A stretch of DNA of 64,000 nt from Tomocerus qinae (taxonomy: Eukaryota; Arthropoda; Collembola; Entomobryomorpha; Tomoceridae). The notes under the pieces were generated by a model. That model had not been told where the DNA came from, did not search any database, and worked only from the letters and a program-made list of their open reading frames with translations. The position numbers and the translations under genes are program-made. This document shows positions 5,156 through 46,368 of this stretch, piece by piece; within the stretch, counting starts at the first letter, position 1, and each line of letters opens with the position of its first letter. The DNA is taken from positions 107,698,875 to 107,762,874 of the forward strand of contig CM034546.1 of assembly GCA_020055645.1 (NCBI GenBank). The letters are read 5' to 3'.

Positions 5156-5473
5156 GTGTCTCTCATATTTACAGAGTAAAGATTGAAAAAAGTAGCAATA
5201 AATCCGCGAGATAATTTACGTATTCTCCTGCACACCATCCAGATTCTATTTACGGGAAGCGGAAGATTTTTGCTGTTGCACTCTCACCTCAACTAATTGG
5301 ATTTTCTTTTCAACAGTTCCGAAAAGGGGAGAGGAAGTAAATCTGTCAGCGTAAAATTCTTTAAAGTATGACGATAAGTAATAAAAAGTGCTGTTTAGTC
5401 CAGTCGTAAATTCTAAAGTAATTTTGAGTAATAGAATTTTTTATTTGCAGTAAATACTTGCGAAGGAAGGAGT

Positions 5474-6640
5474 ATGACACTAATACCACAAATGATACCA
5501 AAAGCAGAGCATGTGCCGGCTCCTTTACTACGGCGAACTTCCAGCCAGAAAACAAATAGTTCCGCATGTGCTGCTTTGAAACACTTAGAAGTTGAAGATG
5601 AGTTCGACATAATTAAAACTCTTTCCGAAGGATATTTTTCGAAAGTTATTCTAGTCAGAAAATGTACAGACCGTCTTGTTCTCAAAGCAATTCATTCAAA
5701 CTCAACTCTATACGAAGATTTTGTCAAGGAGGTTGAATACAATTATTTTCTAAGTCCCCATCCAAATGTAGTGAAATCCTTCAACGTAACATTTTTTTGG
5801 AATGACTATTTTGTTTTCGTTCAAGAATTCGCTCCTTATGGGAATTTGACTCGCTTTCTTAAAAGTGATTCTTGCGGACTAGCAGAAAATCATGTGAAAC
5901 TCATAGTAAAACAACTGAGCTCCGCTCTGGAGTTTATGCATAGTGTAAAATTGGTGCATAGAGATATACGATTAGAAAACATTTTAGTTTTCAAACAGAA
6001 CTTTTCTCAGATTAAAATTTGCGATTTTGGCTCGACAAGGAGTGAAGGGAGTCTTGTGAAGAAAACCAGTCAATTATCAACACCATTCTCTCCACCTGAA
6101 GTTTGCCAAACTGTGATTCTTGAGAACTACTACACATACTCGTCGACCGATGTGTGGCAAGTTGGCATACTCGTCATTGTTTGTTTAACAGGTATAGAGC
6201 CTTGGCAATGTGCTGACATCACGGACGCTGTCTACTGTCAGTATACAGATTGGCTCAAGAAAAAATCCTTGAGAGTACCCGAAAATTTTCAGCCTTTTAC
6301 TCCAAGGCTCGTCAGACTCTTGAAAAGGCTTCTAGAACCTAAACCTAAGAAAAGATGCGAAATTCGAGAGATCTGCAAATATTTGGAAGACGAATGGATA
6401 CGTAAAGGATTTACTACCAGAAGAATGCTGGAACGACATGGAAGTAGCTCCACCAGAACTTCTAAATCACGATCATCTTACGTTATGCCTAGAAGAAAAT
6501 CAGTTCGATTTGCCGAACGAGTCGATAAGGAAGAAGAACTAGATTATAATTCGGTGGCCGAGAGAGTTGGACAATGGGTTGCTTCTACTACACCCACTGC
6601 GTCGATTACTCCCATTACAACTGCCACAAATCTCCTATAG
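5474..6640 (+). CDS. SBK1-like serine/threonine protein kinase (paralogue 1)
   Basis: A 388-residue cytoplasmic Ser/Thr kinase in one coding exon. The domain spans about residues 44-312. The glycine loop SEGYFSKV (51-58) keeps only its central glycine. The beta3 lysine is K71 in LVLKAI. The catalytic loop HRDIRLEN (162-169) has Arg where nearly all active kinases have Lys. DFG is at 184-186, an APE-like SPPEV follows, and the TDVWQVGI...LTG block of helices F/G resembles SBK1. The tail (313-388) is basic and Ser-rich. It contains RRKS (340-343), a PKA/basophilic-type site, and KSVRF (342-346), which fits the PP1-docking RVxF pattern. A motif SVAERVGQWVAS near the C-terminus is shared with paralogue 2. 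The first in-frame ATG follows an inferred 5' UTR splice acceptor. Substrates are unknown. Confidence 0.85.
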   Translation: MTLIPQMIPKAEHVPAPLLRRTSSQKTNSSACAALKHLEVEDEFDIIKTLSEGYFSKVILVRKCTDRLVLKAIHSNSTLYEDFVKEVEYNYFLSPHPNVVKSFNVTFFWNDYFVFVQEFAPYGNLTRFLKSDSCGLAENHVKLIVKQLSSALEFMHSVKLVHRDIRLENILVFKQNFSQIKICDFGSTRSEGSLVKKTSQLSTPFSPPEVCQTVILENYYTYSSTDVWQVGILVIVCLTGIEPWQCADITDAVYCQYTDWLKKKSLRVPENFQPFTPRLVRLLKRLLEPKPKKRCEIREICKYLEDEWIRKGFTTRRMLERHGSSSTRTSKSRSSYVMPRRKSVRFAERVDKEEELDYNSVAERVGQWVASTTPTASITPITTATNLL

Positions 6641-7911: not shown

Positions 7912-9789
7912 TTACACATTTTGAGTCAGAAAATTATTTTTCATTGCGAAAGTACCTCTGAAATTGCCTTGAATGTTTACTAAAACTTCATTTCCACGAA
8001 TGCCTGCAATATTGCCTAATATTTTTTCACTGTTAAGGAAATAGTATACATCTAAGCCACTCACAGGGATCTGAAGTAACTTTCTGTTGGTAGTCATTCT
8101 CTCAATGAATCCTGTGATTGCTACTTGAGCAAAGAATTTAACTTGCAGGTCATCCACCCAATCTACATACCAGGAAACTTCCAAAGTTCTGTGAGGAACA
8201 ATGGTGACAACAGTGTCTATACTGTAATCATCGTTTGCAGTTTTCTCCATGTTCTGCATGTTGGTTAATTCCATGCCCTGAGTCCATAGAAATTCAACAC
8301 TTCTGTCTTTCTCTTGAGTTTCGAATTTCAAAGGTAAGTTAGCCTTACAGGAAATATTTGCAAAATGATTGAAAGATTGGTTAAATTTAAAACTGTAATA
8401 ATTGGTTAGTGTTTTATTGTGTTTGAGAACAAAGGATTGGGAAATGCCACTATTGTTAGGTATTTTTAATTTGTCCATACTGAGAATGTTGACTCTTCGA
8501 GTTGGGATTACGGAAGAAGAATTGTCAACTCCATAGTGAAAATTGGAGATTATCCCAGACAATTTTATTTTCTTTGTAGGTGAAAATCTGAAGAGAACAT
8601 CATCGCGCCATTTTTGACCTGGGTGGTAATTGGTCATTGAACCGGGCGAAGTATCCACTTGTAGATATTTATTACTCGCACCTCCGTATTTATTCGTCCA
8701 TGTAATGATTCCAGAAGGTAAATTCGAAATTTGGATAATGTAGTGATCTTCAATCTCTGTCCCATTGATGAAAATCATTGCATCGTTTCTCCATTTTCCT
8801 CCAGGTTTGTAAAACGCGCCGTCATCGTCCTTTTTGGACAACTGAATAAAATGTCCGTTCGGTGATGTTTCTTTAGTCCAGGTAAAAATTCCTTCGGGCA
8901 TACCTCGATTAATTAGCAAGAAAGCATTAGAATTTTCAGTGGGAACAATCATCCATTGAGCATCTGTGTGGAACTTGCCTCCTGGAGAATAATACTGTTG
9001 AGTAGAGGATTTAAAATCAATCTGTACATAATTGTTTCCCCTTTCTGTACTTTGCTCTGCCCACGTAATGTATCCTTTCGGATAGCGCAACAATCCTAGC
9101 ATGTAAAAGGTCCCCGTTAGCAACTTCGTTCCTGGAACAGGCTGGATAGGAATTAATTCTGGTTCTAATAGGTCAATACTACTTGTATTATTTTGCGCAT
9201 CATTTGGCTTTTGCTCCAGGATAATCTGTTGTGCTGTTGTATTGTTTTCCACCAATGTTGGAATCTGATTCGGTTGATCAATAATTGTTAAAGGGAATGT
9301 GAGAGGCTGCTCTTTTTGCTCCATCAATCTACATTGTGCGCAACAATTAGTACTTTAAAATGTATTTTCTAAAGATTTTGTAAAATTATAGATAGTTACA
9401 TTTTCACAATGGAGAAATATTCTTTTACAACAATGTTATGGCTTATTAAATGCTCCAAGAAAAATGAACGGACATCAGGAGATACCAGAATGTCAACTTC
9501 CTTCCCAATTTTGTCAATACCATTCCAAAAGAACAACTGAAAATGAAGAGGGGCATTTTTAAATATTTATTAGAATTTTCAACTAAAATACTGAAATCAT
9601 GTTATCGTGTTTACTTACCCCAGAATTAGAATTTCTTAAGATAAGGAGGATTTCCAATTGAGTATCATTTTCAGGTATTACTCTGTATAACTTGTATCCA
9701 ATATATTCAAAGCTTAAACTAGACACAACACTTTTACTTACAAATATACAACTGAAAATGACTAACGAGGATCTTAGATAACAATACAT
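7912..9789 (-). CDS. Secreted chimeric protein: M14-type activation peptide + three repeats + aerolysin-like pore-forming module
   Basis: Proposed exons are 9789-9619, 9536-9400 and 9328-7912, giving 574 residues. Exon 1 encodes a signal peptide (about 1-24) and the start of a metallocarboxypeptidase (M14) activation peptide (GYKLYRVIPEN, then QLEILL). Exon 2 completes that fold (LFFWNG, KEVDILVSP, then a helix). Introns are 82 and 71 nt. The second has donor GTAACT, branch-like TACTAAT and acceptor GTAG, and joins in frame. Exon 3 has a polar linker, then three repeats about 60 residues apart, each with GxxTW and a PG(G/Q)K(F/W) motif, suggesting a beta-trefoil-like lectin module (spliced residues about 178-356). 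The rest is Ser/Thr- and aromatic-rich beta sequence with a VP...V block like aerolysin/ETX-MTX2 proteins. If intron 2 is retained, a stop follows two codons later and exon 3 could start alone at ATG 9324. There is no M14 catalytic domain. Family calls are from pattern only. Confidence 0.65.
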
Positions 9790-11314: not shown

Positions 11315-12746
11315 TTACTCTCCGCTAGGTCCTTCCAAAGCAGTTCCAAATCCAACAGGTCTGGGGAATGCTGGAGAGTTGTCAGGATTCCATCCGTATT
11401 TCTGTACTCTGGCAGTTCTTCCTTCCCTGTTATTAATCATCATTAAATTAACAAAAATCATAAAAAAGGAAACCTTTCTAAAGAAGTTGAATTAAAGATC
11501 ATACCATCCACCGTTTGGATCAGCCATAGCATGATAGACTATCCAGGGTTCCCTTCCATCTGTATACAAGTTCATTAATACCATAATTAAAACAGTTAGC
11601 GACAGCCCATTTAAAAATTTGCTTATGTTCTTTAGACCTTACCAGGAGAGATAGTGAATGAAGCGTGTCCAACTCCATAGACTCCAGCTTGGTCGTTTCT
11701 CCAGAAGACAGGCTGATTGTGTCTCCACCAATTTCCTGGATTCAAAGGATCTTGAAGTCCATCGATTCCCATGAATCCTAAACAATAATCTGCAGTCCAA
11801 CTGCCGGATGCAGAATACACTACAAATGTTCTTCCTTGGTTCTGAATTATCTGAGGTCCTTCAATCAGAGGTGCTCCATTCATTTCCCAGTTATGTTCTG
11901 GGGTTTTGATCAGCACACGATTTCCACAAATTCTCATTGGATCGCACATAGGAGCAATGTATAAATTCTGTGGCATTCCAGAGTCGATATTGGGCCATCC
12001 TGAAAGGAGAAAATGTCTCTCAGTCCTACTTGTCTTGATTATTAAAATGTCTAGCACAATTTACCTGACCAAATTAAATACAATCGTCCGTTTCCATAAA
12101 CCAGCGGAGTCGCGTCTATAGCCCAGTAATCTTGCCCTGGGACAGTCAATCTACAATTAACAATATTTGCTATTAGTAACATTTTTATAATTGGAGTTCA
12201 GAAATACAGTCTAGATATTTACCTAACTTCTCCAGTCCATCCTCCCCACATTGGGTTATTAGGGTCATTTGCTCGAATTACGTACATACGATGATTAGCG
12301 TTATTGCCGTCAGTTTGTAGGGCAAAGTACATGTACCAGTTACCGTCAAGCCAGTGAATTTCAGGTGCCCAGAGAGCATCCAAACCACCAGGAGCCCGGT
12401 AGACAAAAGACCTCTCAGCATTTCTCCAATTGGTCAATCTTGGAGATCTGTACAGAGCTATTCCATTGTCCTCTGATCTTGGCATGTAATAGAATCCTGT
12501 TTGGTATATAAATAAAGTTATAATTTGTAAAGTTAAATGACAAAGAAATACAAATAGTAGTTCTGAATGTCATAAGATGCTACCATCATGATGACGATGA
12601 GTAAATGGATCTGGCCATGGAAAATCAGCAATTGGGTTATGAAAACTTGCTCTGGTCGAATTCTGGACGCCAGCCCCGAAAACAGAGTCAATCAGACCGA
12701 GACTTCCTAAAAGAGCTAAAGCAAAAATGCACTTAAATGGAGACAT
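11315..12746 (-). CDS. Secreted glycoside hydrolase family 43 (arabinan/arabinoxylan-degrading type)
   Basis: Six coding exons: 12746-12584, 12496-12223, 12150-12065, 11999-11643, 11559-11505 and 11426-11315. All have GT-AG introns of 65-87 nt and phases that close exactly to 348 residues. Residues 1-24 are a signal peptide. A five-bladed GH43 catalytic domain follows. D46 in WPDPF is the likely general base, D158 in WAIDATP the pKa-modulating Asp, and E221 in PLIEGPQ the general acid. WAPEIHW and the C-terminal GWNPDNSP-like strand are also GH43 hallmarks. Expected substrates are arabinofuranosyl or xylosyl side chains of plant wall pectin or hemicellulose, cleaved in the gut lumen; exact specificity cannot be read. 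GH43 is a bacterial/fungal family, and its presence in an intron-bearing animal gene implies old horizontal transfer. Confidence 0.92.
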
Positions 12747-15515: not shown

Positions 15516-15833
15516 GTAAGCACGATATTTATTTTCTAATCTCTAAGTTTATACGCTAAATTATAAACAAATCTTGGGCGATTTTCGGCAAAATCTTTAT
15601 TATTACGACGTATTGATAATAAATACGGCTAAAAAATTAAGATTAGTTTACAGATGAATAGATATTACAAGCTTTTGAAGTTTATATGTATAAATATCCA
15701 TTGATGAGTGACTTGTTCCATTTTATTTTTCTACCAGAAAATTGATGGAAAATAACTGTACAACAATGAGAATAAGAATATTAATGATTATCTTTGTTTA
15801 TTTAACAGACTCAGTAGTGAAGAAAGAACTGTA

Positions 15834-16985
15834 ATGAAAATGAAGCGTTTACAGAAAGAGCCGTCTCCTATCAGCGAGCAAAACTCAATTGGAAGTCTGT
15901 CTTACAAGGAAATAAACATAGAAGAAGAGTTCGATGTCGTGAAAACACTGGCTGAAGGATGCTTTGCCAAAGTAATTCTTGCAAAGAAAAACAATGAGAA
16001 GCTGGTTTTGAAAGCGATTCACAGCGAGATCAGTAGCATTGCTGATTTTAACCGGGAATTGAATTACAATTATTTCCTCAGTCCACATCCCAATATAGTG
16101 ACATCCTACAACGTCTCATTCGTTTGGAATGGTTGTTACCTCTTCGTTCAAGAGTACGCCCCTTGCGGAGATCTGTCTCGCTTCATTAAGAAAGGAGGTT
16201 TGCCTGAGAGTCAGGTGAAAATTGTAGCCCAACAATTGGCATCCGCTTTGGAATTTATTCACAGCTCCCATCTTGTTCATCGAGATTTGAAGCTGGAGAA
16301 CATTCTCGTTTTCAAATCCAATTTGTCACTGATAAAAATTTGTGATTTTGGCTACACGCGTCCTGAAGGCTCACTAGTGACGAAAACGAACCAAACGTGG
16401 ATTCCTTTCTCCCCTCCCGAGATCTGTCAAGTTGTACTACAAGAGAGATATTATTGCTACCCATCTTCAGATGTTTGGCAGCTTGGGATAATTTTGTACT
16501 TTTGCCTCACGGGCTATGCACCTTGGCAGTGTGCGGATATTACAGATAATGTTTATTGTCAATACACAGAGTGGTTGAGGAGAAAATCTCTCCGGATGCC
16601 AGAACAATTCAAACCATTCACCCCAAGGTTACTCCGACTCTTCAAACGAATTCTCGAACCCAAATCTTCAAAGCGTTATGGAGTCACGGAGATTTCCAAG
16701 TATTTGAAAGATGAATGGGTTAAACGTGGTTATTCTGCCACTAGAGTCAGCTCAATTGGTGATAGGCGCGAGTCGGTCACTCCATCAGGACATAGTCACC
16801 ACATCAAACATAACAGCAGGAAACAGTCTCGTACCAATTACCAAAATCATGTCAGATCTCAATCCCTTAGAATTCTCAAAAGCTATGGTTTGGAAACTGA
16901 TATGGATAAAGCTTCTATTTCCGAGAGGGTAGAGAGTTGGATTGCTACTAATTCCGTCAACAGCAACCACATCTTTTGCAATTAA
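15834..16985 (+). CDS. SBK1-like serine/threonine protein kinase (paralogue 2)
   Basis: A 383-residue kinase in one coding exon, clearly a paralogue of the gene at 5474-6640 along the whole domain. The domain spans about residues 34-302. The glycine loop AEGCFAKV (40-47) retains one glycine. The beta3 lysine is K60. The catalytic loop HRDLKLEN (149-156) is canonical, as is DFG (171-173). SPPEICQ and SSDVWQLGI...LTGYAPWQ follow, as in SBK1. The 80-residue tail is basic and Ser/His-rich but lacks the RVxF-like motif of paralogue 1, and it ends with the shared SISERVESWIAT motif. Either ATG at 15834 or 15840 could start it; the first is chosen. The 5' UTR intron position just before the ATG matches paralogue 1. 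Function beyond protein phosphorylation is unknown. Confidence 0.87.
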   Translation: MKMKRLQKEPSPISEQNSIGSLSYKEINIEEEFDVVKTLAEGCFAKVILAKKNNEKLVLKAIHSEISSIADFNRELNYNYFLSPHPNIVTSYNVSFVWNGCYLFVQEYAPCGDLSRFIKKGGLPESQVKIVAQQLASALEFIHSSHLVHRDLKLENILVFKSNLSLIKICDFGYTRPEGSLVTKTNQTWIPFSPPEICQVVLQERYYCYPSSDVWQLGIILYFCLTGYAPWQCADITDNVYCQYTEWLRRKSLRMPEQFKPFTPRLLRLFKRILEPKSSKRYGVTEISKYLKDEWVKRGYSATRVSSIGDRRESVTPSGHSHHIKHNSRKQSRTNYQNHVRSQSLRILKSYGLETDMDKASISERVESWIATNSVNSNHIFCN

Positions 16986-31245: not shown

Positions 31246-31251
31246 TTTATT
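31246..31251 (-). terminator. Poly(A) signal of exchanger A
   Basis: AATAAA on the minus strand, 97 bases after the stop of exchanger A. Confidence 0.5.
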
Positions 31252-31347
31252 GATTCTTCTCACACTTTATGGAATTGCATTTATTTTTCAAAAATATTGT
31301 TAACAAAGTGAAAACTGAAGGTGGAATCACATACCACTGACGAAACT

Positions 31348-34300
31348 TTAGAAAAAATTGTATATTTCGTAAGATTTGATTGCTGACAGTGCAATGTATA
31401 TGAACCATAAAACCAGAAATATTGAGCCAGCTGTCCATTTCCCGATATTTCCTCCTCCTAACTCCGCACCCCAAAGAAGCCTCCGTAAGAAAAGGATAAA
31501 CATTGCAACCACCGCAGTTGCAGAGTATATTACAACACTGAAAGTCAAGTCGCCGGGTATGACTACAAATTTCTGTAAATAATCATGTATATTTGCATCA
31601 TAATTTTTGTATCATAGCTCTTATTGCTTGGCAGTAATTAGGGTGAAAAATTGCAACAATTAAAATAGCACGAACAGTTCCATTTATTTCATGATACATG
31701 GCCGCAATAGTCCAAGGTAAACCTAGGCCTAAGAAGACATTTACAGAGTTGCTTCCAGTTACATTCCCGATAGCATTGTCGGCGTGCTTTTCTGAAGCTA
31801 CAGCAGCTTTACTTGCAAATAAGTCTGGAACAGACGTCCCCAATGCTACAAATGTGATTGCTGAAAACAAAATAAGAAGTTTTTAAAACAAAGGACCCCG
31901 TTTCTGACAAATGTTCCAAGGTACAGCTTAAAACAGATATTCTGGTAATTTTTACTGTATTTTTTTATCTAAAGCATCCTTTAACTAACCTGTCACTGTG
32001 TCTTTCATACCAATAAGACAACCAAAGGACTCTGCCATATCACCAATGAGTGCCGTCAGAAAACCAATAAGGATCAAAGTGGAAAGAAAGCACAACCAAC
32101 CTATTTTAATACAACTTAATTACACAACCGAAATTTTACCAACACTTAATTTTTTACACCAACCTCCGCAATAACCAACTGGAGGTATACAGGCCAATAT
32201 AACTTTCCATGGGAAAGTTATAACGTGGAAAATGTAGTCTGCTGTTGTAGCTTCCTCGATATTACCTTCATTCAGGGAAACAACAAAAAAGATTAAAGAT
32301 CGTCTACAATAGATGTATGACGATAGTAAATGATTACCTCCGTTCACGGACAAAGCAATTTTAAATTGGGCACCATAGCTCTGATTGCCTACTTGCAACG
32401 ATTCAACATTTTCCGCAGCCAAGTGCATTAGCTTTTCAATTGTGTCAGATGGAACTGTCAAAATTTCATAATTTAATTATTTTTGAGAAAAAATAATATA
32501 TTGTAATGTTATTATTAACCACCTTCTTCATTTGAAATTGTCACTTTGATTTTAGAGATTTCTCCTAGATGTACACCACCAGTTGTATCTTGCAAAACAA
32601 CAAAGAAGTATCCCGTTTTTGTCGAATTTGGTATATTGGTGATTGGGATCGATATGGTACCTTTTGGCTTGGATAAAAAATGAAATTATCAGTAGTAAAA
32701 GACAATTTTATCAATTAATTTTTCAACTGGATGGGAAATTACTTCGCCGTGTGGGAAAGTGATTGTTCCATGGGATTCAGTGTAATCATGTGGGCATAGA
32801 GCAGTTCCATCAACAGTTTTGTAGGAAACAGTGACAACACCATCACATCCATTTGACCGCTTCAATGGTAATTGTACAGCACCACAGTCTTGTTTCACAA
32901 ACATACCTCTTTGAATAAACGATACAGATCCTGGATCTACAAAACAAATAATACTCTTAGTTCCCCACTCAAAAGAATCATCGCAAGGAAAATGGATTTA
33001 TAGTGTATTGATAATTAAATTACTATCATCATCTAAAATGACGATTTCCATAATTGGTATCCTTCCCAAGACTGCTTCCTGAGCATCGTTTACAATGCTT
33101 GCTCTAATGAAAAATTCTTCTTCCGGCTCCCACTGATTATCATCAATGACTGTGACAGGGATGAGTATTTCTGTACTGTTAGGAGCAAAAGTGACGTTGT
33201 AACTAAATGGAATATAATCATCGTCAGCATTGGCTGTTCCGTCAAATGTTTCCACTTTGACACAAACTTCATTATCCAGGCGACCACGTCGGATCAGCTT
33301 CACGTTCGTTGTACCAATATTCTCCATAACAGCAACGGATACTCCTTCGAATTCTATTATAGCTTTCCTAAGGTCTGAATCCTTTCTATGACTAGCTGCC
33401 ATTGGTTCTTTATCCAATGCAGTGTAAACCTGGATAAAAGTACATCTATCAATGGATTTATTTATGCCAATAATACTAAAGTTAATGGACTAGTTACTTC
33501 TTTTAGTTTTTCATCAATGACAGGCATTATCTGAGGAGATCCCATTAAAATTCTACTGACTCCAGCTCGAGAATAAAGGTGGGAATGTTGGGATTGGTCA
33601 ATTAACCTTTAAGAATTCAATTCACGGATGTAAAGTACTGAAAAATATCAAAACAGAATAGTGTAAAAAGAAATTACTTTCTAGCAACCAAACTCGCTGT
33701 TTCCTCCTCTGTTAATTCAGGGTTGATTGTTCTCATTTGATTGTATAGGGCAATCAGGGCTTCTTGATTAATAATTCCGTCCTTGTAGAGCCCATTGTTC
33801 TCTTCTATTATGAAACCCAGTCAAAACACATTTCATATTAAATTTTATCATGTGTATTTGTCAACAATCTTCGTATGCTTATCTAAGGATTTAATCATAA
33901 CTTACGGGAAGGAACTCCATCCTTGTTCGCTTCTTCATCATCAAGGACTGACACCTTTCTCGCTGGTATCCCTCGAACACAAAATTCGTGATCTGCCCAC
34001 CATGCTACTACTACTAGCATAGGAAATAAGAGTAATGTAACTATCGCTTCCCATAATTCAACCTCATTTTTAGAAAGTACTTCCAGGACGATTACCATCC
34101 ACGCATAGGCAAATAAACTGAACAGTGATGTTACAATAAAAACCTAAAAGTGTAATACAACATTTAGATAGTTTAGTCTATTAATATTTCTCAACAGTCA
34201 AAAAATATCTGCAATGTAAAGTTACTTTTATTCCTTTGATTTTCCGAACTTCTCCTTTTGGTACAAAAATGATGCACACCGAAATTATTACCAACAGGTT

Positions 34301-35198
34301 AAATGCAGCTGAACCAACTGAAAAATAACAGAATGGTAATCTCAATTCTTTGTTTAAACATGAGCTTTGACAGTCTCGTTAGTGGGCATAACCTACTAAT
34401 TTTGACTAAAAATATTCATTAAACGTTTTACCTATTGTTCCAGCTCCTAATTTTCCCGATTGAAATTTATTGCCAATGATTTCAATACAAGATAGTAAAA
34501 TTTCAGGTGCTGAAGAACCCAAGGCCATGAGGGTTAAATTGGCTATTGTGTCATTCCATACTTTGTCATCATGTAATTTATACTGTACTTTACCCGCAAG
34601 TTCAAATTTTACAACCCTCTAATTGGGAAAATGCGGTACAAATTATTTTACTTGCTTTCCTACTTCTAATAATAAGGCACAATCCTTAGTTGAACATTAT
34701 TGACAAATTGACATACCTGTTTCGTTTTGCTTGTGATTTTCTCTATAGACTAAAGATTGTAATCCAAAAATATCAATTAGATTCTAAAATTCACTTCCAA
34801 AAGTACATTACAGCAAAAGTATATCATCCATTATCATTACCGCCATGAAAATATCCGATGCAATAGCAACACCCAAGAAAAAATACAGTAAACCGAGGAA
34901 GTACATAGTTACCCTCAGCCAGCTCTTCCAACAGAGTTCGCAAGGAAATAGAGGAAGAATTAGGCCCTAGGTCATAAACAGAAATCAAAGAACATTTAAT
35001 TGCTACCAAATTCATAACTTTACTCATTACCCCAAAAAAATGTTGATGCAATTCATAAACTGTCGCAGATGGCTATTCTGTGATTGTACTTACAGATGCA
35101 CCACATGGAGTGCAATCTTCTATGTTGGGAAGATATTTCAATCCATTTGCCGAAGATATAGATACAATTAAAATCCCCAATGGTCCTACTAAAGCCAT
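31348..35198 (-). CDS. Na+/Ca2+ exchanger (NCX/CALX family), tandem copy A
   Basis: Plasma-membrane antiporter expected to exchange Na+ for Ca2+. Sixteen coding exons: 35198-35094, 34966-34841, 34749-34717, 34618-34432, 34317-34226, 34143-33906, 33804-33678, 33606-33498, 33429-33024, 32936-32743, 32667-32523, 32454-32338, 32265-32164, 32100-31990, 31860-31676 and 31572-31348. Phases close to 833 residues. Exon 1 encodes a signal peptide and a Cys-containing ectodomain start. The alpha-1 repeat [10 protein letters not shown] is at 122-131 and alpha-2 [10 protein letters not shown] at 705-714. Calx-beta domain 1 (about 340-474) keeps [12 protein letters not shown] and terminal DDD. Domain 2 (about 475-587) has lost most acidic ligands ([15 protein letters not shown]). 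I see no recognisable XIP segment after TM5. The TAG before exon 2 is the splice acceptor, not a nonsense codon. Exon 15 uses a weak donor, GTTCGT. Confidence 0.9.
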
Positions 35199-35866
35199 TG
35201 CTATTTGTTATTGCAAACACCTACAAACTGCAAATTACTAGCTAGTTGTTACATATTCTTCCGTGTTCCATGTTTTTAGTAATCTTGTCATTTTTGATAA
35301 TCCGTTAAAATGATTCACAAACCTCCACTGTCTACTCCATTTATTTGATAATCAGTTGGAATCATTCTACAAAGAAGCAAATTCGTCAAAGCTGGATTCA
35401 AGTTTCAAATCTCGTTCAAATCAAATGTCTCCAGGACAATATTGACTTTTCCTTCCCAAGTGTTGAAACTTTGGGGGCGGAATGCAATCAAGCTTACAAA
35501 CCTTGTACTTGCCTTGCACCGAAGAACTAGTTTGATCTTGAGTGGCTGTTGATGTTGACTGTAGAACTTGGAGAAACATTTGGAGTGGAAGCTCTAATTC
35601 GTTCCTACTTTTTCATTACTTTTACTGCTTTTACCATAATAATATACTAAGTAATTACGCTGGTATTGGTAGCCCTTACGAATATTACCATGGGGTACTA
35701 TAATGTAATGTACTCTTCGAATCGACTAATTTTACTCTCTTGGTTGCAAAGCAAGTGCCAACATGCCTTTGAGACGTCTGTGACATTTATATACATTAAA
35801 ATTAGCCACCTGCGACGGCTTCTAGTAGAAATTAATAACAAACGAGACAATAGTGCAAGCACAGAG

Positions 35867-35872
35867 TTTATT
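35867..35872 (-). terminator. Poly(A) signal of exchanger B
   Basis: AATAAA on the minus strand only 30 bases after the stop codon of exchanger B, implying a very short 3' UTR. The next start codon (exchanger A) lies about 670 bases further on. Confidence 0.5.
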
Positions 35873-35901
35873 TCTTAGTGAAGGTATACACAACTTGGAA
35901 T

Positions 35902-38900
35902 TTAGAAAAAATGATATATTCCGTAAGATTTTAATGCTGACATTACAATATAAAAGAACCATAAAGCCAGAAATATAAATCCAACTACCCATTTTCCAAC
36001 GATTCCTCCTCCTAATTCTGCATTCACAAAAATCCTTCGTATGAACAAGATAGCTATCGCGATAATTGCTGTGGATGAGTATATGACAACACTAAAAGTC
36101 AAGTCGCCGGATCTGACCATAAATTCCTGGAACAAGTCATATTTTATACATTATCATTTTCATGTAACTATGCTTTGCATACCTGTAATCAGGGTTCAAT
36201 GGCTATATAAGTATAATTAATTAGATTATACATACGTATGAACAGTTATTTGTTTATCACCCACACTTAACAGACATACAAGCTTAATGGGAAACGATTA
36301 GAAATTGAACTAACGGTTCCGTTTATGAGATGATAAATAGCCGCAATAGTCCAAGGCAATCCTAGGCCTAAGAAGACATTTACAGAGTTACTCCCAGTTA
36401 CATTTCCGATAGCATTGTCTGCGTACATTTCTGTAGCTACAGCAGCTTTACTAGCAAATAAGTCTGGAACCGACGTCCCCAATGCTACAAATGTGATTGC
36501 TGAAAAGATAATTTTAATGTAATTGAAACCATTTTTGTCATCTTCTATTAATTATGCCTATAGGTTAACAGATGCTAACATACACACAAGTTAATCATTA
36601 TTGAAACACGATACATTTTTACGTACAGATAAAAAGTCTCCGGTAACTAACCTGTCACTGTGTCTTTCATACCAATAAGGCAACCAAAGGATTCTGCCAT
36701 ATCACCAATGATGGCTGTTAGGATACCAATAACAGCCAAAGAGGAAACAAAGCACAACCAACCTATTTTTAATCCAGCTTAATTATACCGAAATTCTATC
36801 TAGCATAACCTAATTTATGTAATACAAAATTAGAATCATTACCAACCTCCACAATAACCAACAGGAGGAAGGCAAGCAAATAGAACTTTCCACGGAAAAG
36901 TAAAGACATGCAAAATGTAATCCAATGTTGTAGCGTCCTCGATATTACCTGCACTCACATAGTGAACACAAATGATTAAATCTAAAATTAGGAAACTTCT
37001 TATGATATTGCAGATAATGATTTGAAATTAATACCTCCATTTACGGACAGCGCATCGTTAAATTGAGCAGCATAATTATCATGGCCTAATTGCATTATTT
37101 CAACATTTTCTGCAGCTATTTGCATCATTTTCTCAATTGCTTCCGGCGAAACTGTACAAAGGAAATAAGATCATATATTATTTTTGAGAAAACGATTCTC
37201 GTTTGTTTGATAGAGTTATCCACCTTCTTCATTCGATATTGTCACTTTGATTTTAGACATATCGCCTAGATGTAGACCATCAGTTGGCTCTCGCAATATA
37301 ACAAAAAAATATCCAGATTTGGATGGATTTTCTGAATTGATAATTGGAATTGATATGGTTGATTTGGCCTGGGACAAAAAGTTAAATATTTGCAATGAAT
37401 AATATGTTTGTAATGTAATTATGATTTCGAATTTACAAATTACTTCGCCATGGTTGAGAACAATTTTTCCATGAGTTTCTGTGTAATCTTCTGGACACAT
37501 AGCAGTTCCATCAAGAGTTTTATAGCAAACAGAAACAATACCATCACACCCGTTTGATCGCTTCAATTGTAGTTCTACAGTACCACAATCTTGTTGCACA
37601 AAAACACCTCTCTGAGTAAACGATATGGAACCTGGATCTATACAATACAAAATTCTTATTAACTGTTGCATTTGCATCCCATAGTAATCAGTTTCAGTGA
37701 AATGATTGGGAAATTAAATTACTGTCGTCATCTAAAATGATGACTTCCATAATTGCATTCTTTCCTAAGACTGAGTCTTGTAAATCGTTTACAATGCTTG
37801 CTCTAATGAAAAATTCTTCTTCCGGCTCCCACTGGTTATCATCAACGATTGTCACAGGAATATCTATTTCTGTACTGTTAGGGAGAAAGGTTACAATGTG
37901 GCTAAAGGGAATGTAGTCAGTGTAAGCATTAGCTGTTCCGTCAAATGTATCCAATTTGACACAAACTTGATTATCTAATCGACCGCGTCGGATCAGCTTC
38001 ACGTTAACTTGACCGATATTCTCCATAACAGCAATGGATGCTCCTTCGAATTCTATTATAGCTTTTTTGTAATCGGAGTCTTTCCTGTTCTTCCAAGTGT
38101 CGTTATTACTCTCCAGTACGTGGTAAACCTTCATAAAATTACGAGTATCAGCAACTGGTATACTTTAATATTTTCAAGCTTCAAATGGAATTAGTTTTAC
38201 TTCGTTTAGTTTTTCATCAATGACAGGCACGAGCTGCGGACCTCCCATTAACACTCTACTGACTCCAGAGCGGTACCAAAGGTGGGAATGCGTTGAGTCA
38301 TTGATTAGCCTAAAATTATTTCATATCATTTGAAACAGACTACAATATTTCTAAACAAACTAAAACCTAATTAGCCATAAAACAGAAATTACTTTCTAGC
38401 AACCAGACCCGCTGTTTCTTCTTCTGTTAATTCAGGGTTGATTGTTCTCCATCGAGTGTAAAGTGCAATCAAGGCTTCTTGATTAACAATTCCGTCCCTG
38501 TAGAGTGCATTGTTCTCATCTATTATGCAAATCAGTCAAAACACAATTCATATTAAATGTGCTGTTACAATTTCGCCATGTGCATTTGTAAATAAATATA
38601 TTCTGAACTTACAGAAAGGTACTCCTTCCTTGTTTGCTTCTTCATCAATAAGTGATGACCATCTTTTCGGGGATTTTCCTCGAATACAAAAATCATGATC
38701 TGCCCACCATGCTATGAATACTAGTGCTGGAAATAATAGTAATGTAACAATCGCTTCCCATAATTCAATCACGTTTTTTGAGACTACATCCAGTACGATT
38801 ACCATCCACGCGTAGGCAAATAGACTAAATATGGACGTTACAATAAAAACCTAAAAGTGTAATAAAACATTTTTTGAGACTGTTTCGTCTGCATTTCAGA

Positions 38901-39842
38901 AATGGAAGAAAAATCTGCTTCATAATATTACTTTTATTCCTTTGATTTTCCGAACTTCTCCTTTTGGTACAGATACGATACATACGGAAATTATTACCAA
39001 CAAGTTAAATGCAGCTGAACCAACTGTAAAATAAAGGTTACCTCAACTCTTTGTTGAAACAGGAATTTTGGCAGTCTCGTTGCATTACTTAAGATTAAAT
39101 ACCATGAACGTTTTACCTATTGTTCCAGCTCCTAATTTTCCCGATTCAAATTTATTGCCAATAATTTCAATACAAGATAGTAAAATTTCAGGGGCTGAAG
39201 AGCCCAAGGCCATGAGGGTTAAATTGGCCACAGTGTCATTCCATACTTTGTCATCATATACTTTGTACTGCACTGTGCCCTCATACTCAAATTTCACAAA
39301 CGCCTATTTTGGAAAAAAACTTCTTTTTATTGTTATTAATTTAGCACTATTATTCATGTTACAACATTCTGGCTTAAGATGTTACCTGTCTTGTTTTGCT
39401 AGTAATTTTCTCAATAGACTAAAATTTAAATCATTTACCAAGTTATTTCATTTCACAGCTAATTTTTACAAAAAATAGTATTTGTATAGTCAGTATCATT
39501 ACCGCCATGAAAATATCCGATGCAATAGCAACCCCCAAGAAAAAATAGATTATGCCGAAGAAGTATAGAATGGCCCTTGTTTGATTATCCCAACAGAGTT
39601 CGAAAGGAAATAGAGGAAGGATTAGGCCCTTGGTCATGTATAAAATCATATCATATTATTTTTTACGGAATGTACAACTTCAGCTCTTCACCCTACTTGC
39701 AGATGGTTATTCTGTCTGTGATTGTACTTACAAATTCGCCACATGATGAGCATATTACGATGACATCGCCGATGGAGACGCTCGATCGTCCTTCCGCTCC
39801 AGATCGTTGTAAATGCACAATTCCCAATTGCTCTGATGTCAT
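35902..39842 (-). CDS. Na+/Ca2+ exchanger (NCX/CALX family), tandem copy B
   Basis: Sixteen coding exons: 39842-39732, 39628-39503, 39418-39386, 39303-39117, 39023-38932, 38850-38613, 38519-38393, 38309-38201, 38128-37723, 37637-37444, 37368-37224, 37151-37035, 36948-36847, 36762-36652, 36499-36315 and 36126-35902. The product is 835 residues. All exons except the first match copy A in length and phase. Alpha-1 [10 protein letters not shown] is at 124-133 and alpha-2 [10 protein letters not shown] at 707-716. Calx-beta 1 (about 342-476) keeps [12 protein letters not shown] and DDD. Calx-beta 2 (about 477-589) shows the same acidic loss as A ([15 protein letters not shown]). The assigned first exon has no obvious signal peptide, unlike A; an alternative upstream first exon is possible. 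It is the closest relative of A, so the pair arose by recent tandem duplication. Confidence 0.88.
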
Positions 39843-41587
39843 TTTTATTTGTAATTGTCAACTTCTGCAAGCTAATTACTGTAAACAGTCACCTGTAAAT
39901 GCCTTTTTAGTAACTGTTTCATAATATATTCTATTCATTTTACACTACAATCTACATTGGTCAAATTGTGATTAAAATTAGGTTCTAAGTAATACGAATT
40001 GGATCTTGGGTCTGCAAAAATTAATATGATTTTGTAAGCTGATTTATGTGCTCGTTGATTATTGATAGAGAATGGAACCAAGGATGAAACAATATTCACA
40101 ACAAGGCTTTTGGAAATATGGGTTGTCTTGGATTTCCAACAGCAATGATTTGATTACTATTTCATTTATAGTACAGTGTGATTCTAGGTTCTTTGAAACC
40201 CAAGGATTTGAAACCAGTGAATCAAAAGTTGTAATCTAAGACGTATTTTAATTTAAAATCTCTCTTCTTCTCTTCAGAATAAATTGGCACAAAACTGTAA
40301 ACCCTTCATTGGTTCGTCGTGATAATCATCATGGGAAAATGCTTGTTAGTGTGCCAATTTATTCTGAAAAGAAGGGGAGGGCAAAATGAGGGAAAAAACC
40401 CCAGTCGGCAGTCTACGAAGAGGTGAGATTTTTTGGATAGCAATGAGCTTTAAAAACTGGGTACTACATAATATCTTGGTTATCAAAAAGGATACCTTTA
40501 TTGTTACTTTGTTACCTTTAGAGTGAATTATTTTTGCTGAGCAAAATAATCACAAAATAAGATTTATTTTTAACTTGCACAACCAGATCAATGTGAAGAT
40601 TTAAAATGCTTTACACATGTCGAGGTCAATATTCCCTACAAGTATTACAGATGCGATATGATTACCTACACCTGCTGTTATCATAAACCAGATGAAAAAT
40701 GAGCCTATACAAATACCCACTCACTGAATTCGACGAAACAAATAATTAAATACATAAAGATTTTTTTATTATTAAAGTTGAGATTTTCAGTTAGTGATCG
40801 AACACAGCTTGTAATGTGTATTAGGTACATAAAGTAATATATAACTGGTACCGCTTGAAGAATAGCATTTCCTAAGCCACTTTTTGGTTACAAAATACAT
40901 TAGCATTAGCAGTAATTTATTAGAACATGTAACGAGTACAGGTACTGGACACTATAGGTTACATTATTAGTGATGTAAATAGGCATGTTATCCCATATTA
41001 TGTGAGTTTTCTATTGGTAGGTTTTTTCTTCAATTGTATGCACAAACGTTCATAGGGTTTGGCATATTGTTTTACATGAGTGAGTGTTAGTTGTATAAAA
41101 ACATCTTTCAACGATCGATCAAATGATTAGTAGCTATCAGAAGGCAAATTAAATAAAAACTACAGCTAAACGGAATGAAAAATGGAATGTTTAAGAAATT
41201 TAAGCATCAACAACATACATACCAACAAAGATTCATATTATACATTCGTGCAAATAAAGTAAATACGTCTTCTACTACCTCCAAACTACAACTATATACG
41301 TACTACAATAAGACGTAACAACATGAAGTGTATTTCGATAAATTAAATTCAACTGTTTTTAAAGACCCATTCTAAGTCTAGTTTGACAGTTTTCGTCTCA
41401 CAGGTATATAAATAAGTTATTATGCTTAAATAGAGAACATTAATTTTGTGCCCCGTATTATCCACATAAAATTGAGTCAAAAAATTAATTACTTTTAGTA
41501 ACAAATTTTGTCAGTTAATAATAATAATAGATATATCTTAGATGAAATAACAAACTAATGGTAAATTAAACAAAAATGCGCAATTGA
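39843..41587. other. Intergenic stretch between exchangers C and B
   Basis: Holds the 3' flank of exchanger C and the presumed promoter of exchanger B. The only structure seen is the hairpin-forming inverted repeat at 40273-40368. No coding sequence recognised. Confidence 0.55.
40273..40368. repeat. Perfect 19-bp inverted repeat, 58-base spacer
   Basis: Left arm 40273-40291 (TTCAGAATAAATTGGCACA) and right arm 40350-40368 are exact reverse complements. Pairing partly extends outward through CTTCT/AGAAG-rich sequence. The unit could fold as a 96-nt hairpin, a size range shared by MITE remnants and microRNA precursors, although the 58-base unpaired spacer is long for the latter. Confidence 0.7.
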
Positions 41588-44500
41588 TCATTTAAGATTG
41601 ACCTCGATGTGGCCGTAAGCTTGCAGTGAAGATAAAATGACGTAGAGAAACCAAAGGGAAAACAAAAATATTCCGCTGCCCCATTTGGCCACAGTTGGTC
41701 CTCCAAGTTCTGCTTTGCCAAAAAAGGCTACGTACCGCCTTATTAACACTAATGAAAGGGCCATAAATGCAACTGCAGAGTAAATCAGCACACTAAATCC
41801 CAAAGATCCAGAGTCTACCTTGAATACTTCTCCCTGAAAAGACAAAACAAAAACGGAAATTAAAATCTTGTAAAAAGAAAGGTTTAGAATGGATTATGTC
41901 ATATTGAGGAAATTACCTGCGACTCGTGAAAGATAGCAGCTAAAACCCAAGGAAGACCAAGACCTAAGAAAACATTTACAGAGTTGCTGCCAGTCACATT
42001 TCCGATGGCATTATCGGCGTACTTTTCTTGGGCTGCTGCAGTTTTACTTGCAAACAAATCAGGTAAGGAAGTTCCAAGAGCCACGAAGGTAATAGCTACA
42101 GTGATATAAATCCAATTAAAATAATCCATTTAAAGTATTTAGTGCACTTATATGCTTTCGGACAATAATTCTGGACGTACCGGTGACAGTATCTTTTAGG
42201 CCAACCATGCATCCAAAGAGTGATGCCAAATCTCCAACAATTGCTGTAAGTACACCAATCGCTCCCAAAGAGCAGAAGAAACAAAGCCATCCTCCAAAAT
42301 AACCAGGTGGAGGAATCAGAGAAAATATAGCCTTCCATCCAAAAGTCATAAAATGCATAACATAATCAAATCCAGTTGCTCCTTCTACATCACCACCGTT
42401 GACCGTAAGAGCTGCTTTCATTTGTGATTTATAAGTTTCATGGTGAACTTCCATAGATTTTAGATTACTAGTGGTCATAACTAACATTCTTTGCAAGACT
42501 GAGTTGAAATCTAAACAAAAACATATGAATATAAGTCCCAAATTTCTATGTACATTAAATAATATGACATAGCTGATAGCATTTCTTTTCTTACCATCGT
42601 CATTAGAAATTGTAACAGCTACTCGAGGAATACGACCAAGACTGGCCCCACCGGTCGGATTAAAAATTTCAACTTCAAAACATTCATCTTTTTCAGGATC
42701 CATATCATCAACAATCGGGATATCGATAGATCTAAGAGTCTTCATAAACCAATGTTAGTTAGAGGAATTAATTTTATATCAAAACAAATGAAGAATAGTA
42801 TTTACTTCTCCGTGCTTAAATTCCAACGTTCCTTCCCCTCCTTGGAAATCTTCTGGTGATTTTGCTGATCCTTCATGAGTTTTCCATTGAACGGACACTT
42901 CGCCATCAGCGCCATTGATTCGTTCCACTTCAAGTGAAGCGAATTTACAGCTTTCCTTTACTAAGAGACCTCGTTTTCGGAATGAGAGAACTCCAGGTTC
43001 TGAAACATTAATACACGCGTATATGATTTATATTCTAACTTTTCAAACCTTGAAACAACATTAGGAGTATCAGACAAAGTATCTCTATTAATAAATGACT
43101 ACAAGTTATGACAGATTGTCAATTTGCTAATCAGCATTATTCCTAACTCAAAACATCCATCACAAACATTTCTCAAGTGTAGACCAACATTAGACATCAA
43201 ATACTTTGAAACAATGACAAATGAAGATGGATTGATTAGACATTGGCTATGTCTGTTATTGTACTAAGCGTAAAATTACTAACCATCATCGTTAAGAATA
43301 ACAATTTCCATAATTGGCAAGCGCCCCAGGGTTACATCTCTGCGATCGTATCCTTCGTCAACAAGAGACAGTCGCAAGAAGAATTCCTCATCGGGCTCCC
43401 ATTGATTATCATCAACAATCTTGACAGTCACTTCTCTTTCTTTAGAATATGGACCAAAGACAATCTGTTCGTTAATTGGAATGTAATCAGATCCACTTTT
43501 AGCTGTGCCATCAAAAGATTCGACTCTAACGCGCACGGTAGTGTCCATTCGTCCATGTCGAACAAGGGTGACATTGAATTTTCCGATATTTTCAGGCACT
43601 GCAAAAGAAGCGGAGTGGAATTCGACAATTGCTTTGTCTGGTGGAGTTTCTGATACAACAGGTGGTAATGTTCCAATGTCAGGAACATCAGGCGACTCGT
43701 TTATTGTGTCATATACCTATAAAGATATAATTTCATTATTAAGTACCAATATAGAATGTATTATCTATAAATCTGAAATATGTTCCATACAAAACAAAAT
43801 TTTTGGAAAAATGGGAACTGACCTCTTGTAATTTGTCGGTTAAAATAGGGTGAATTTTTCTGCTACCAGCCATTCCACGACATGCTCCAATCCGGTACCA
43901 AAGGCGAGAATGAGGTTGTCCATCAATCAACCTAATTTACGATGAAATCACAATTAGAATTTACTTTCAAAATAGAAAATTTCATATGAGCCTAAATTAC
44001 TTGGTTGCTGCAAGTACAGCAGCATCAGAGTCACTTAAGTCGGGGAATTTTCTCAATTCTTTATAAAACTCGATCAATCCTTGTCTGTTCAGTTCTCCGT
44101 CTTTGTAGAAAAGTTGCTGCTTAGCCAGCATAGATTCCGCTATAGTTAACATGAACAAAATTAGATACCAGAAAATACAATTTTACTGTAATAAATTTTA
44201 CAAATTAAGAATTATATTGCAGTGCAAAATAGCTGAGTTGCAAATGTGATTCACAGACACAGCATGCTCAAGAAAACACAATTCGTGTGAGAGTTTTTGG
44301 TAAACACGACAAAACATAGACAATGAAGAAGTTGACCAGGGACGATACAAAAACATATATGAAATAACTGTATATTATGAGTATAGCAGAATAAATGCAA
44401 AGAATTAATCTTTGATGTTACAAATTTGCAACTAAAAGCTTATGGAAAGGTAGCACAGATTAAGAGAATCAGCAAAAGGTCATCCATCACAAAGTGCAAA

Positions 44501-46204
44501 ATGTAGCTAAATTTACGATTTAAGATATTAGATAATGTTAGTAATGATAAACTACTGTTAAAAGCAGAAATTAAACCTACCACCTTGTTGGCTTTCGACC
44601 TGGGATTTAACTTTGTCTGGATGAGATCCTAGATATTCATTGACAATAGCTGATTGCGTCACACCACACAAGAACCCAGCAAGAGATTAGAAGAGAAAAA
44701 TTTCACAAAAACGGAAGTTATCACCAAAAAATCAACAAGTATTACACAATAAAGTTGAAACTAAACAAAGACAAGCTACACAGATCAGTACAAAGAAAAG
44801 AGATAAACTACCAACTACCCCATCTAATTTGAATAGCAATTTTAAAACTATGTCTAAGCAGTGTGTGCTATCAATAAAATTATTAATAAATGTTAATTGT
44901 ATCAATCAGTTTGTCTATTCTATTCTAATGCTCTTTTCTTCGGTACTAAAACATTTTCTACTCTCGGCTACCAAACATGATTAACATGTGTCGACTTACT
45001 AAGTCCCATTGAATAACATCCAGTAAGTAGAGTAAGAACTAAATTCATGTTAAATCAAAATGGACAAAATAATTACGAAAGAACACAATTTAAGTTCACA
45101 AAGAATAAAAAGATTTCAAATTAGTAAAGCTTACAGCTTGGCTTCGTAGCTTTGGAAGTTTTTAGTTCTAAAAAAGGAGCATTACTTACACTCACCACCG
45201 GGACTACCGTTAGCCATGCCGAGTTCAATTTGTTGTTGGTCGGCTACTTGTGGGGGTAGTTTTCCACACTTCCAATCTCGGTCCGCCCACCAAGCTATCA
45301 AAACCAACGCAGGGAAGAATAAGAACGTCAGAATAGCTTCCCAGGAATCAATTCGGCCAGGTGTAATGTAATCCAAAACAAGAAGTAACCAAATATAAGC
45401 GAAAAAGCTAAAAACACTCGTCACAAGAAAAACCTACAAAAAAGTTATTATGGAAAATTATTAGCCTTGGCCTTAAGAATACATTATGATCTACCTCATA
45501 CCTTCATTGAATGTAGTTTAACAGTGGTATTGATTAAAGACTTAAGAATTATCGCTATATATTACCTTGATCAAACGAATAGTTCTGGTTTGCCCATTAG
45601 GGATAGCAATCATACAAACGCCAGTAATAGCCAACAGATTAAACGCAGCTGAACCTACCTAAAAGTGCGCACACAACAAACTATAGTGAAAACTTACAAC
45701 ATACAAACGATACTAATAGTAAATCTCAACCAAAAATCTTACAATTGTTCCCGGACCCAAATCTCCAGCTTCAAAATTGTTTCCTATAATCTCAATACAT
45801 GACAGTAAAATCTCAGGGGCGGATGAACCGAGGGCCATCAGAGTCAGATTAGCCACAGTATCATTCCATATTCTTACTTCAACAACTTCCGGTTCACTAT
45901 CTTTACCCGTAGATAAATAAATCTGAAAGCAAAAGACCATGATCATCAATTTAGACAACATGAAATCAGTAAATATTTATTATTCAGTAATCACCTTTCT
46001 AGTTTTACTCGTAATTTTCTCAATAGCTCCCATGAACACATCAGCAACAATAGCAACTCCCATAAAACAGTACATTAGACCAGCAAAGTACAGCAAGGCC
46101 CGAAAAGAATTGTTCCAGTACCCCTCATAGGGTATTAGTGGTAGCAGCAGCCCTTTCGTGCATTTGCTATATTCCCCCAATATGGTGGAATTCTCGTAAA
46201 CCAT
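41588..46204 (-). CDS. Na+/Ca2+ exchanger (NCX/CALX family), copy C, with intact acidic Calx-beta 2
   Basis: Thirteen coding exons: 46204-45995, 45922-45743, 45658-45566, 45433-45196, 44649-44584, 44139-44001, 43931-43823, 43716-43284, 42999-42806, 42739-42595, 42510-42181, 42095-41917 and 41833-41588. Phases close to 853 residues. The start follows an in-frame stop 15 bases upstream. Alpha-1 [10 protein letters not shown] is at 102-111 and alpha-2 [10 protein letters not shown] at about 720-729. Calx-beta 1 (about 346-489) has [12 protein letters not shown] but ends NDD rather than DDD. Calx-beta 2 (about 490-602) keeps acidic residues ([16 protein letters not shown]). Exon 11 (330 nt) equals exons 12+13+14 of A and B (117+102+111). 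The 44584-44649 exon has an alternative inner acceptor at the CTAG before GATCTC. No XIP-like basic segment is evident. This copy looks the most ancestral. Confidence 0.9.
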
Positions 46205-46368
46205 TTTGATAGCCTTTTAATTCAAAAATCAGCAGTATTGTCCCAATTCAGGTTTATTTTGATCAAGTTAGGTAGAAGTGTCACCACTCCATTATCACTT
46301 CAGCAAATATTGTCTTCAAAGTTGACTTCCAAAGATTCCTTCCATTCGTCGATCACGCCTTTATATAC
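46205..46368 (-). other. 5' UTR part of exchanger C, preceded by a strong splice acceptor
   Basis: A T-rich tract ending in TTTTGCAG (AG at 46370-46369) precedes this segment, and an in-frame stop separates it from the ATG at 46204. It therefore looks like the non-coding start of the first coding exon, with one or more untranslated exons further upstream. Alternatively TATATAAAG just inside it could be a TATA box. Confidence 0.5.

Follow-up and report, generated by a model that had tools for sequence, protein, structure and literature searches.

Gene structure at the locus

The window is a stretch of 64,000 nt from the Tomocerus qinae genome (contig CM034546.1). On its minus strand, at 9789-7912, lies a gene of three predicted exons in which a signal-like start and an M14 activation domain are joined in frame to a long exon ending in an aerolysin-like module. 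Its features are the following.

9789-9619, minus strand: exon 1, 171 nt, 57 codons, ending in phase 0; codes for a hydrophobic, signal-like start and the opening part of the M14 activation domain
9618-9537, minus strand: intron 1, 82 nt, GTAAGT...CAG, strong sites
9536-9400, minus strand: exon 2, 137 nt, ending in phase 2 after ...SIVK; codes for the remainder of the M14 activation domain
9399-9329, minus strand: intron 2, 71 nt, phase 2, GTAACT...GTAG, containing TACTAAT
9328-7912, minus strand: exon 3, 1417 nt including the stop
9328-9112, minus strand: acidic linker at the start of exon 3, Asn/Gln/Pro-rich, pI 4.06, about 70 residues
9111-8563, minus strand: three repeats, each roughly 60 residues long (8929-9111, 8749-8928, 8563-8748), from the repeat alignment, with matches in paralogs
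8562-7915, minus strand: aerolysin-like, predicted pore-forming module, about 216 residues, from the profile search
7694-7689, minus strand: AATAAA, downstream of the stop

On re-translation, all exon and intron coordinates of the initial annotation were right, and the sequence agrees with the join it had described, a 71-nt phase-2 intron with GTAACT, TACTAAT and GTAG that keeps the reading in frame (..AAA AT/GTAACT..TAG/A TTG ATG.., with slashes at the splice sites). The stop-free frame spans 471 codons, compared with a longest frame of 173 in 2000 shuffles of exon 3, which is beyond chance. The gene is apparently an animal one.

We scored the splice sites with approximate weights after the metazoan consensus and took as reference five introns from a GH43 gene nearby. 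By these approximate weights, intron 1 reaches 10.7 bits at the donor and 7.6 bits at the acceptor. The donor of intron 2 is acceptable at 3.6 bits, inside the GH43-intron range of 3.0-10.3, and its acceptor is weak at -0.1 bits, under the corresponding range of 1.5-12.2; an equal or higher score is reached by 45% of all AG dinucleotides on the minus strand of the window. The 71 nt of intron 2 fall within the GH43-intron range (65-87 nt), and its predicted RNA folding is ordinary (z 0.13). An identical ..AG/A TC.. context is where several paralogs splice or open, and their open frame is of similar kind.

The GH43 glycosyl hydrolase gene itself, with its five small introns of 65-87 nt, lies at 11340-12745 on the minus strand and is possibly of microbial origin. 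Two related protein-kinase ORFs, both intronless open frames with 52% identity over 376 aligned residues, are found on the plus strand at 5435-6637 and 15756-16982. Further genes on the minus strand are a cytochrome P450 gene interrupted by the window start (1-1176), repeated sodium/calcium-exchanger-like exon sets (31250-46216; Calx-beta by Pfam in two of the stretches tested), and exons that look RecA/DMC1-like by eye (61814-63414).

An M14 activation domain without its catalytic domain

The M14 activation-peptide domain that had been proposed for exons 1 and 2 is borne out by a Pfam match above the cut-off, by a colinear PDB match and by models built from M14 genes only. The two exons were searched separately and not as a joined protein. 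Exon 2 alone matched Propep_M14 (PF02244) with 26.3 bits at a cut-off of 22.1 (E 8.3e-6; 26.4 bits in the genome scan), and exon 1 by itself gave no Pfam match. Among PDB sequences, the sole match listed for either exon was 7eqx_A, a 98-residue chain named carboxypeptidase B, to which residues 28-55 of exon 1 align at 6-33 (E 0.016) and exon 2 at 38-78 (E 0.33). These matches are weak singly and colinear, and the two stretches are separated by four residues both in the query and in 7eqx_A. For an unbiased test, we built models from ordinary M14 genes of this genome only (8 rows for exon 2 and 6 rows for exon 1), leaving out the present gene and a second fused locus (L018/L048, described below), and ran them on 4315 open frames from the 20 related loci and four extra upstream stretches. 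The exon-2 model found L018 at E 7.3e-8 and the present gene at 2.9e-6, with the next best frame at 0.26; the exon-1 model found the present gene at 4.4e-7 and L018 at 4.5e-6, with the next best at 0.55.

The domain is of the M14 procarboxypeptidase type, and its introns agree in position and phase with those of ordinary procarboxypeptidase genes. Where the second intron interrupts the present gene, the genome's ordinary M14 genes are interrupted too, in phase 2 and just past the codon following the last strand. The donors were compared by eye in seven of these genes (L038, L040, L041, L042, L046, L047 and L050) and the next exons in five of them (L038, L042, L046, L047 and L050). Intron 1 is in phase 0 in the present gene, in L048, and in the ordinary M14 genes L038 and L050.

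The initial annotation had seen no M14 catalytic domain following these exons. With two M14 catalytic sequences, both from this genome, as queries, we likewise found no match at E<=0.01 in the window or in L001. A whole-genome Propep_M14 scan gave 32 matches, 30 of them above the cut-off. Of these 30, 28 are followed by an M14 catalytic match, so that the genome holds at least 28 M14 enzymes bearing an activation domain. In 27 cases the catalytic match is on the same strand and at most 1.5 kb downstream, and in one, L021, it lies about 2.7-3.8 kb downstream (L055). Only the two fused genes have no such match.

Profile matches of the C-terminal module to aerolysin-type structures

A profile search supports the initial assignment of the C-terminal module as aerolysin-like (best E 5e-9). 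The profile, A2, has 14 rows, namely the present protein and 13 paralogs, and leaves out L003, L008, L009, L014, L015 and L017. Searched against PDB sequences, it gave nine matches, eight of them aerolysin-type (counting 2d42, Cry23Aa1 and 7ml9 as members of this type) and four at E<=5e-4. The best were the natterin-like 4zno (E 5.2e-9) and 5zu4 (E 1.2e-8), followed by the crystal protein 2d42 (E 2.3e-5), Cry23Aa1 (E 5e-4) and an insecticidal protein (0.014), with weak matches to Sarol-1, twice (0.037 and 0.043), and LSL (0.037); the ninth was an unrelated designed barrel at E 0.7. The matches fall on the C-terminal half.

As a single sequence, the module gave only marginal matches in the PDB, and its approximately 216 residues gave none in Pfam, NCBIfam or PHROGs. 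The single-sequence PDB matches, at E 0.1-0.6, were not trusted, because gephyrin and a lipolytic enzyme were among them and YTH proteins came up at E 0.086 with a shuffled control; a reversed control hit only ATP synthase, at E 1.6. AlphaFold models from single sequences were unusable both for exon 3 (pLDDT 29.8) and for the C-terminal module (pLDDT 34.1). An alternating stretch is a candidate for the amphipathic insertion hairpin, with an equal maximum in 102 of 1000 shuffles. No relatives of the predicted pore-former were found in the protein databases at E<=1 or E<=10, so that these searches speak neither for nor against a bacterial or fungal origin. No match came from scanning for viral contigs or searching phages.

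Repeats, linker and candidate cleavage sites

The three repeats first noticed in exon 3 are real, with pairwise scores of 91, 86 and 80, about double the maxima of 40, 43 and 41 from 500 shuffles each. Alignment A3 left out L003, L014, L015, L017, L018, L019 and L020. A 13-row repeat profile matched ricin-B/HA33-type proteins in six of 11 PDB matches, weakly (best E 0.03), and a three-row profile matched mainly antibodies (best E 0.36). The repeats may possibly form a beta-trefoil lectin domain; because the trefoil matches are weak and the three-row profile hits mainly antibodies, the label "lectin" remains a guess.

Between the domains of the present gene, the only trypsin-type sites are K108-E and K171-L, and its linker contains no furin-type site. 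An R-X-[KR]-R motif precedes the repeat domain in five relatives (L004, L010, L011, L012 and L015) and not in the present gene, among the 11 rows scanned.

A second fused locus in a family of paralogs

The genome scan with exon 3 returned at least 21 matches including itself. We examined 20 related loci, counting the present one and leaving out an exon-3 match at C1:67.77 Mb, with 1.5 kb of upstream flank for most and a further 4-5 kb for L002, L006, L012 and L020. Within these flanks the activation domain is present at two of the 20 loci and absent at 18, and it is therefore not general to the pore-former family. Several relatives (e.g. L002, L004, L011 and L016) are preceded by short signal-like ORFs, as candidates only. 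Three loci at C1:123.76-123.77 Mb (L008, L009 and L014) have the three-repeat domain and no pore-module match in the flank examined, and L014 and L017 have an in-frame stop.

The second locus with the activation domain, L018/L048, lies at C1:105.45 Mb, 2.25 Mb from the present gene, and has the domains in the same order. Its Propep_M14 match at C1:105,453,784 is about 0.6 kb ahead of the exon-3 relative at C1:105,454,524, and its junction intron has a GTAAGC donor, a GCAG acceptor and phase 2. It gave no repeat-domain match, the activation domain being followed directly by linker and pore module. A hydrophobic start is missing from its exon 1; an ORF upstream (L056) is signal-like and a candidate only. 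A second locus with the same combination is the strongest point against chance, and it matters because in annotated helminth genomes many of the novel fusions of two domains are artefacts (PMC12964723).

The two fused genes could stem from two captures or from one old capture, and both are possible on the comparisons made here. In a tree of the module the two stand apart, with a single origin in 2% of bootstrap trees and weak support. Their exon 2 sequences share 18% identity, each reaching up to 31-32% with ordinary M14 genes, and their exon 1 sequences share 34%. The best other genome match of L018 is the present gene, at 2.4e-10, narrowly ahead of the next at 7.5e-10.

Probable origin and possible function of the fused gene

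We consider it likely that this is a real fused gene, which arose by exon shuffling through phase-2 introns when a pore-former captured M14 exons. A member of the local family of lectin-like/aerolysin-like pore-formers would have taken over exons 1 and 2 from an M14 procarboxypeptidase gene and with them a signal-like start, an activation domain and presumably also the promoter of a digestive procarboxypeptidase. The protein, if spliced and expressed as predicted, would probably be secreted, exported with an N-terminal cap made up of the M14 domain and the linker. A trypsin-like protease may then cut the linker, the repeat domain may bind a surface, and the C-terminal module would form an oligomeric beta-barrel pore. 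Many aerolysin-type proteins are held inactive by pro-parts, and it is plausible that the putative pore-former stays inactive until a trypsin-like cleavage removes the M14 domain. An inhibitory role of the cap toward the pore-former is a guess to which we give slightly less than an even chance, and for the gut as the place of secretion the chances seem about even. The fuller scenario, in which the activation domain of a digestive zymogen became a safety cap and a gut protease cascade releases a membrane-attacking protein, brought about by exon shuffling, perhaps twice, is put forward tentatively.

The same fusion may also have a simpler meaning. About as likely as a cap, as far as function is concerned, is that the M14 domain was merely carried along with the signal and the promoter; the domain would then supply only these and help in folding, with no inhibition of the pore-former. 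M14 activation domains act on M14 catalytic domains, of which there is none here, and the signal-like short ORFs upstream of some paralogs, candidates as they are, suggest that these paralogs use other first exons. Against this stands the presence of a complete activation domain with conserved positions at two diverged loci, which would be needless for a signal alone.

It is unlikely that the M14 domain of a real fusion targets M14 carboxypeptidases, the animal's own or those of its prey, either bringing the pore-former to these enzymes or inhibiting them. Activation domains of this type do bind M14 enzymes, and the 28 or more encoded in this genome could serve as partners.

Still less probable, in our judgement, is a pair of neighbouring genes, one for a short, secreted M14 activation domain standing by itself, as a remnant or an inhibitor of carboxypeptidases, and one for a pore-former starting from the ATG at 9324. 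If intron 2 is left unspliced, the first frame meets an immediate stop directly after the folded part of the M14 domain, as such a pair would have it, and the weak acceptor of intron 2 also fits. However, the two halves are just 71 nt apart with no AATAAA in the intron between them, the donor used is the phase-2 one that M14 genes conserve, another phase-2 junction joins the parts in this order at the locus 2.25 Mb away, and a protein started at 9324 would have no hydrophobic signal. A decaying chimera without function, for which the weak acceptor and the in-frame stops in some relatives (L014 and L017) might speak, is very improbable given that the 471-codon open frame, the above-cutoff domain and the repeat pattern are all intact.

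Comparison with known systems

The initial annotation knew of no described protein with this domain order, and we found none in the open full-text literature, which leaves most subscription papers outside, that has an aerolysin-type module together with an M14 activation domain. According to excerpts of PMC3110756, aerolysin-type modules occur fused to many different N-terminal domains, and none of the architectures given there has an M14 activation domain, unlike the present gene. The centipede beta-PFTx are likewise aerolysin-like proteins of arthropods; in contrast to the gene described here, their description in the consulted sections of PMC7864903 includes no M14 activation domain.

Aerolysin-type modules also occur behind trefoil lectins, and in LSL (1w3a), Sarol-1 and the chimera-type mytilectins a lectin-like domain stands ahead of the pore module (PMC10744619, in part), as a putative one does here. 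LSL and Sarol-1 are among the weak profile matches (E 0.037-0.043). The present gene differs from these trefoil-lectin pore-formers in its extra M14 domain, and its trefoil is putative. The natterin-like/aerolysin-like animal proteins, such as zebrafish 4zno and 5zu4, likewise have a C-terminal aerolysin-type module behind a beta-rich N-terminal domain, and excerpts of PMC8402412 name the springtail Orchesella cincta among the carriers of natterin-like sequences.

Chimeric genes are documented widely in arthropods, and Folsomia candida has the largest predicted number of HGT-chimeras (PMC13389597, in excerpt). These are likewise new genes made from fused unrelated parts; for the present pore-former, a foreign origin would be conjecture. 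The words "aerolysin" and "carboxypeptidase" are absent from the main text of PMC13389597.

The N-terminal part of the present gene can be traced to a donor, the genome's own procarboxypeptidase genes, which share its phase-2 intron. With the combination present twice, it offers a tangible example of how exon shuffling would assemble a new, presumably secreted effector. It raises the question of whether an activation domain that evolved for one enzyme can restrain an unrelated protein. With the M14A procarboxypeptidases (PF02244 and PF00246), the gene has in common the signal-like start, the activation domain, and the intron position and phases, whereas the M14 catalytic domain of those enzymes is missing here and a pore-former exon stands in its place.
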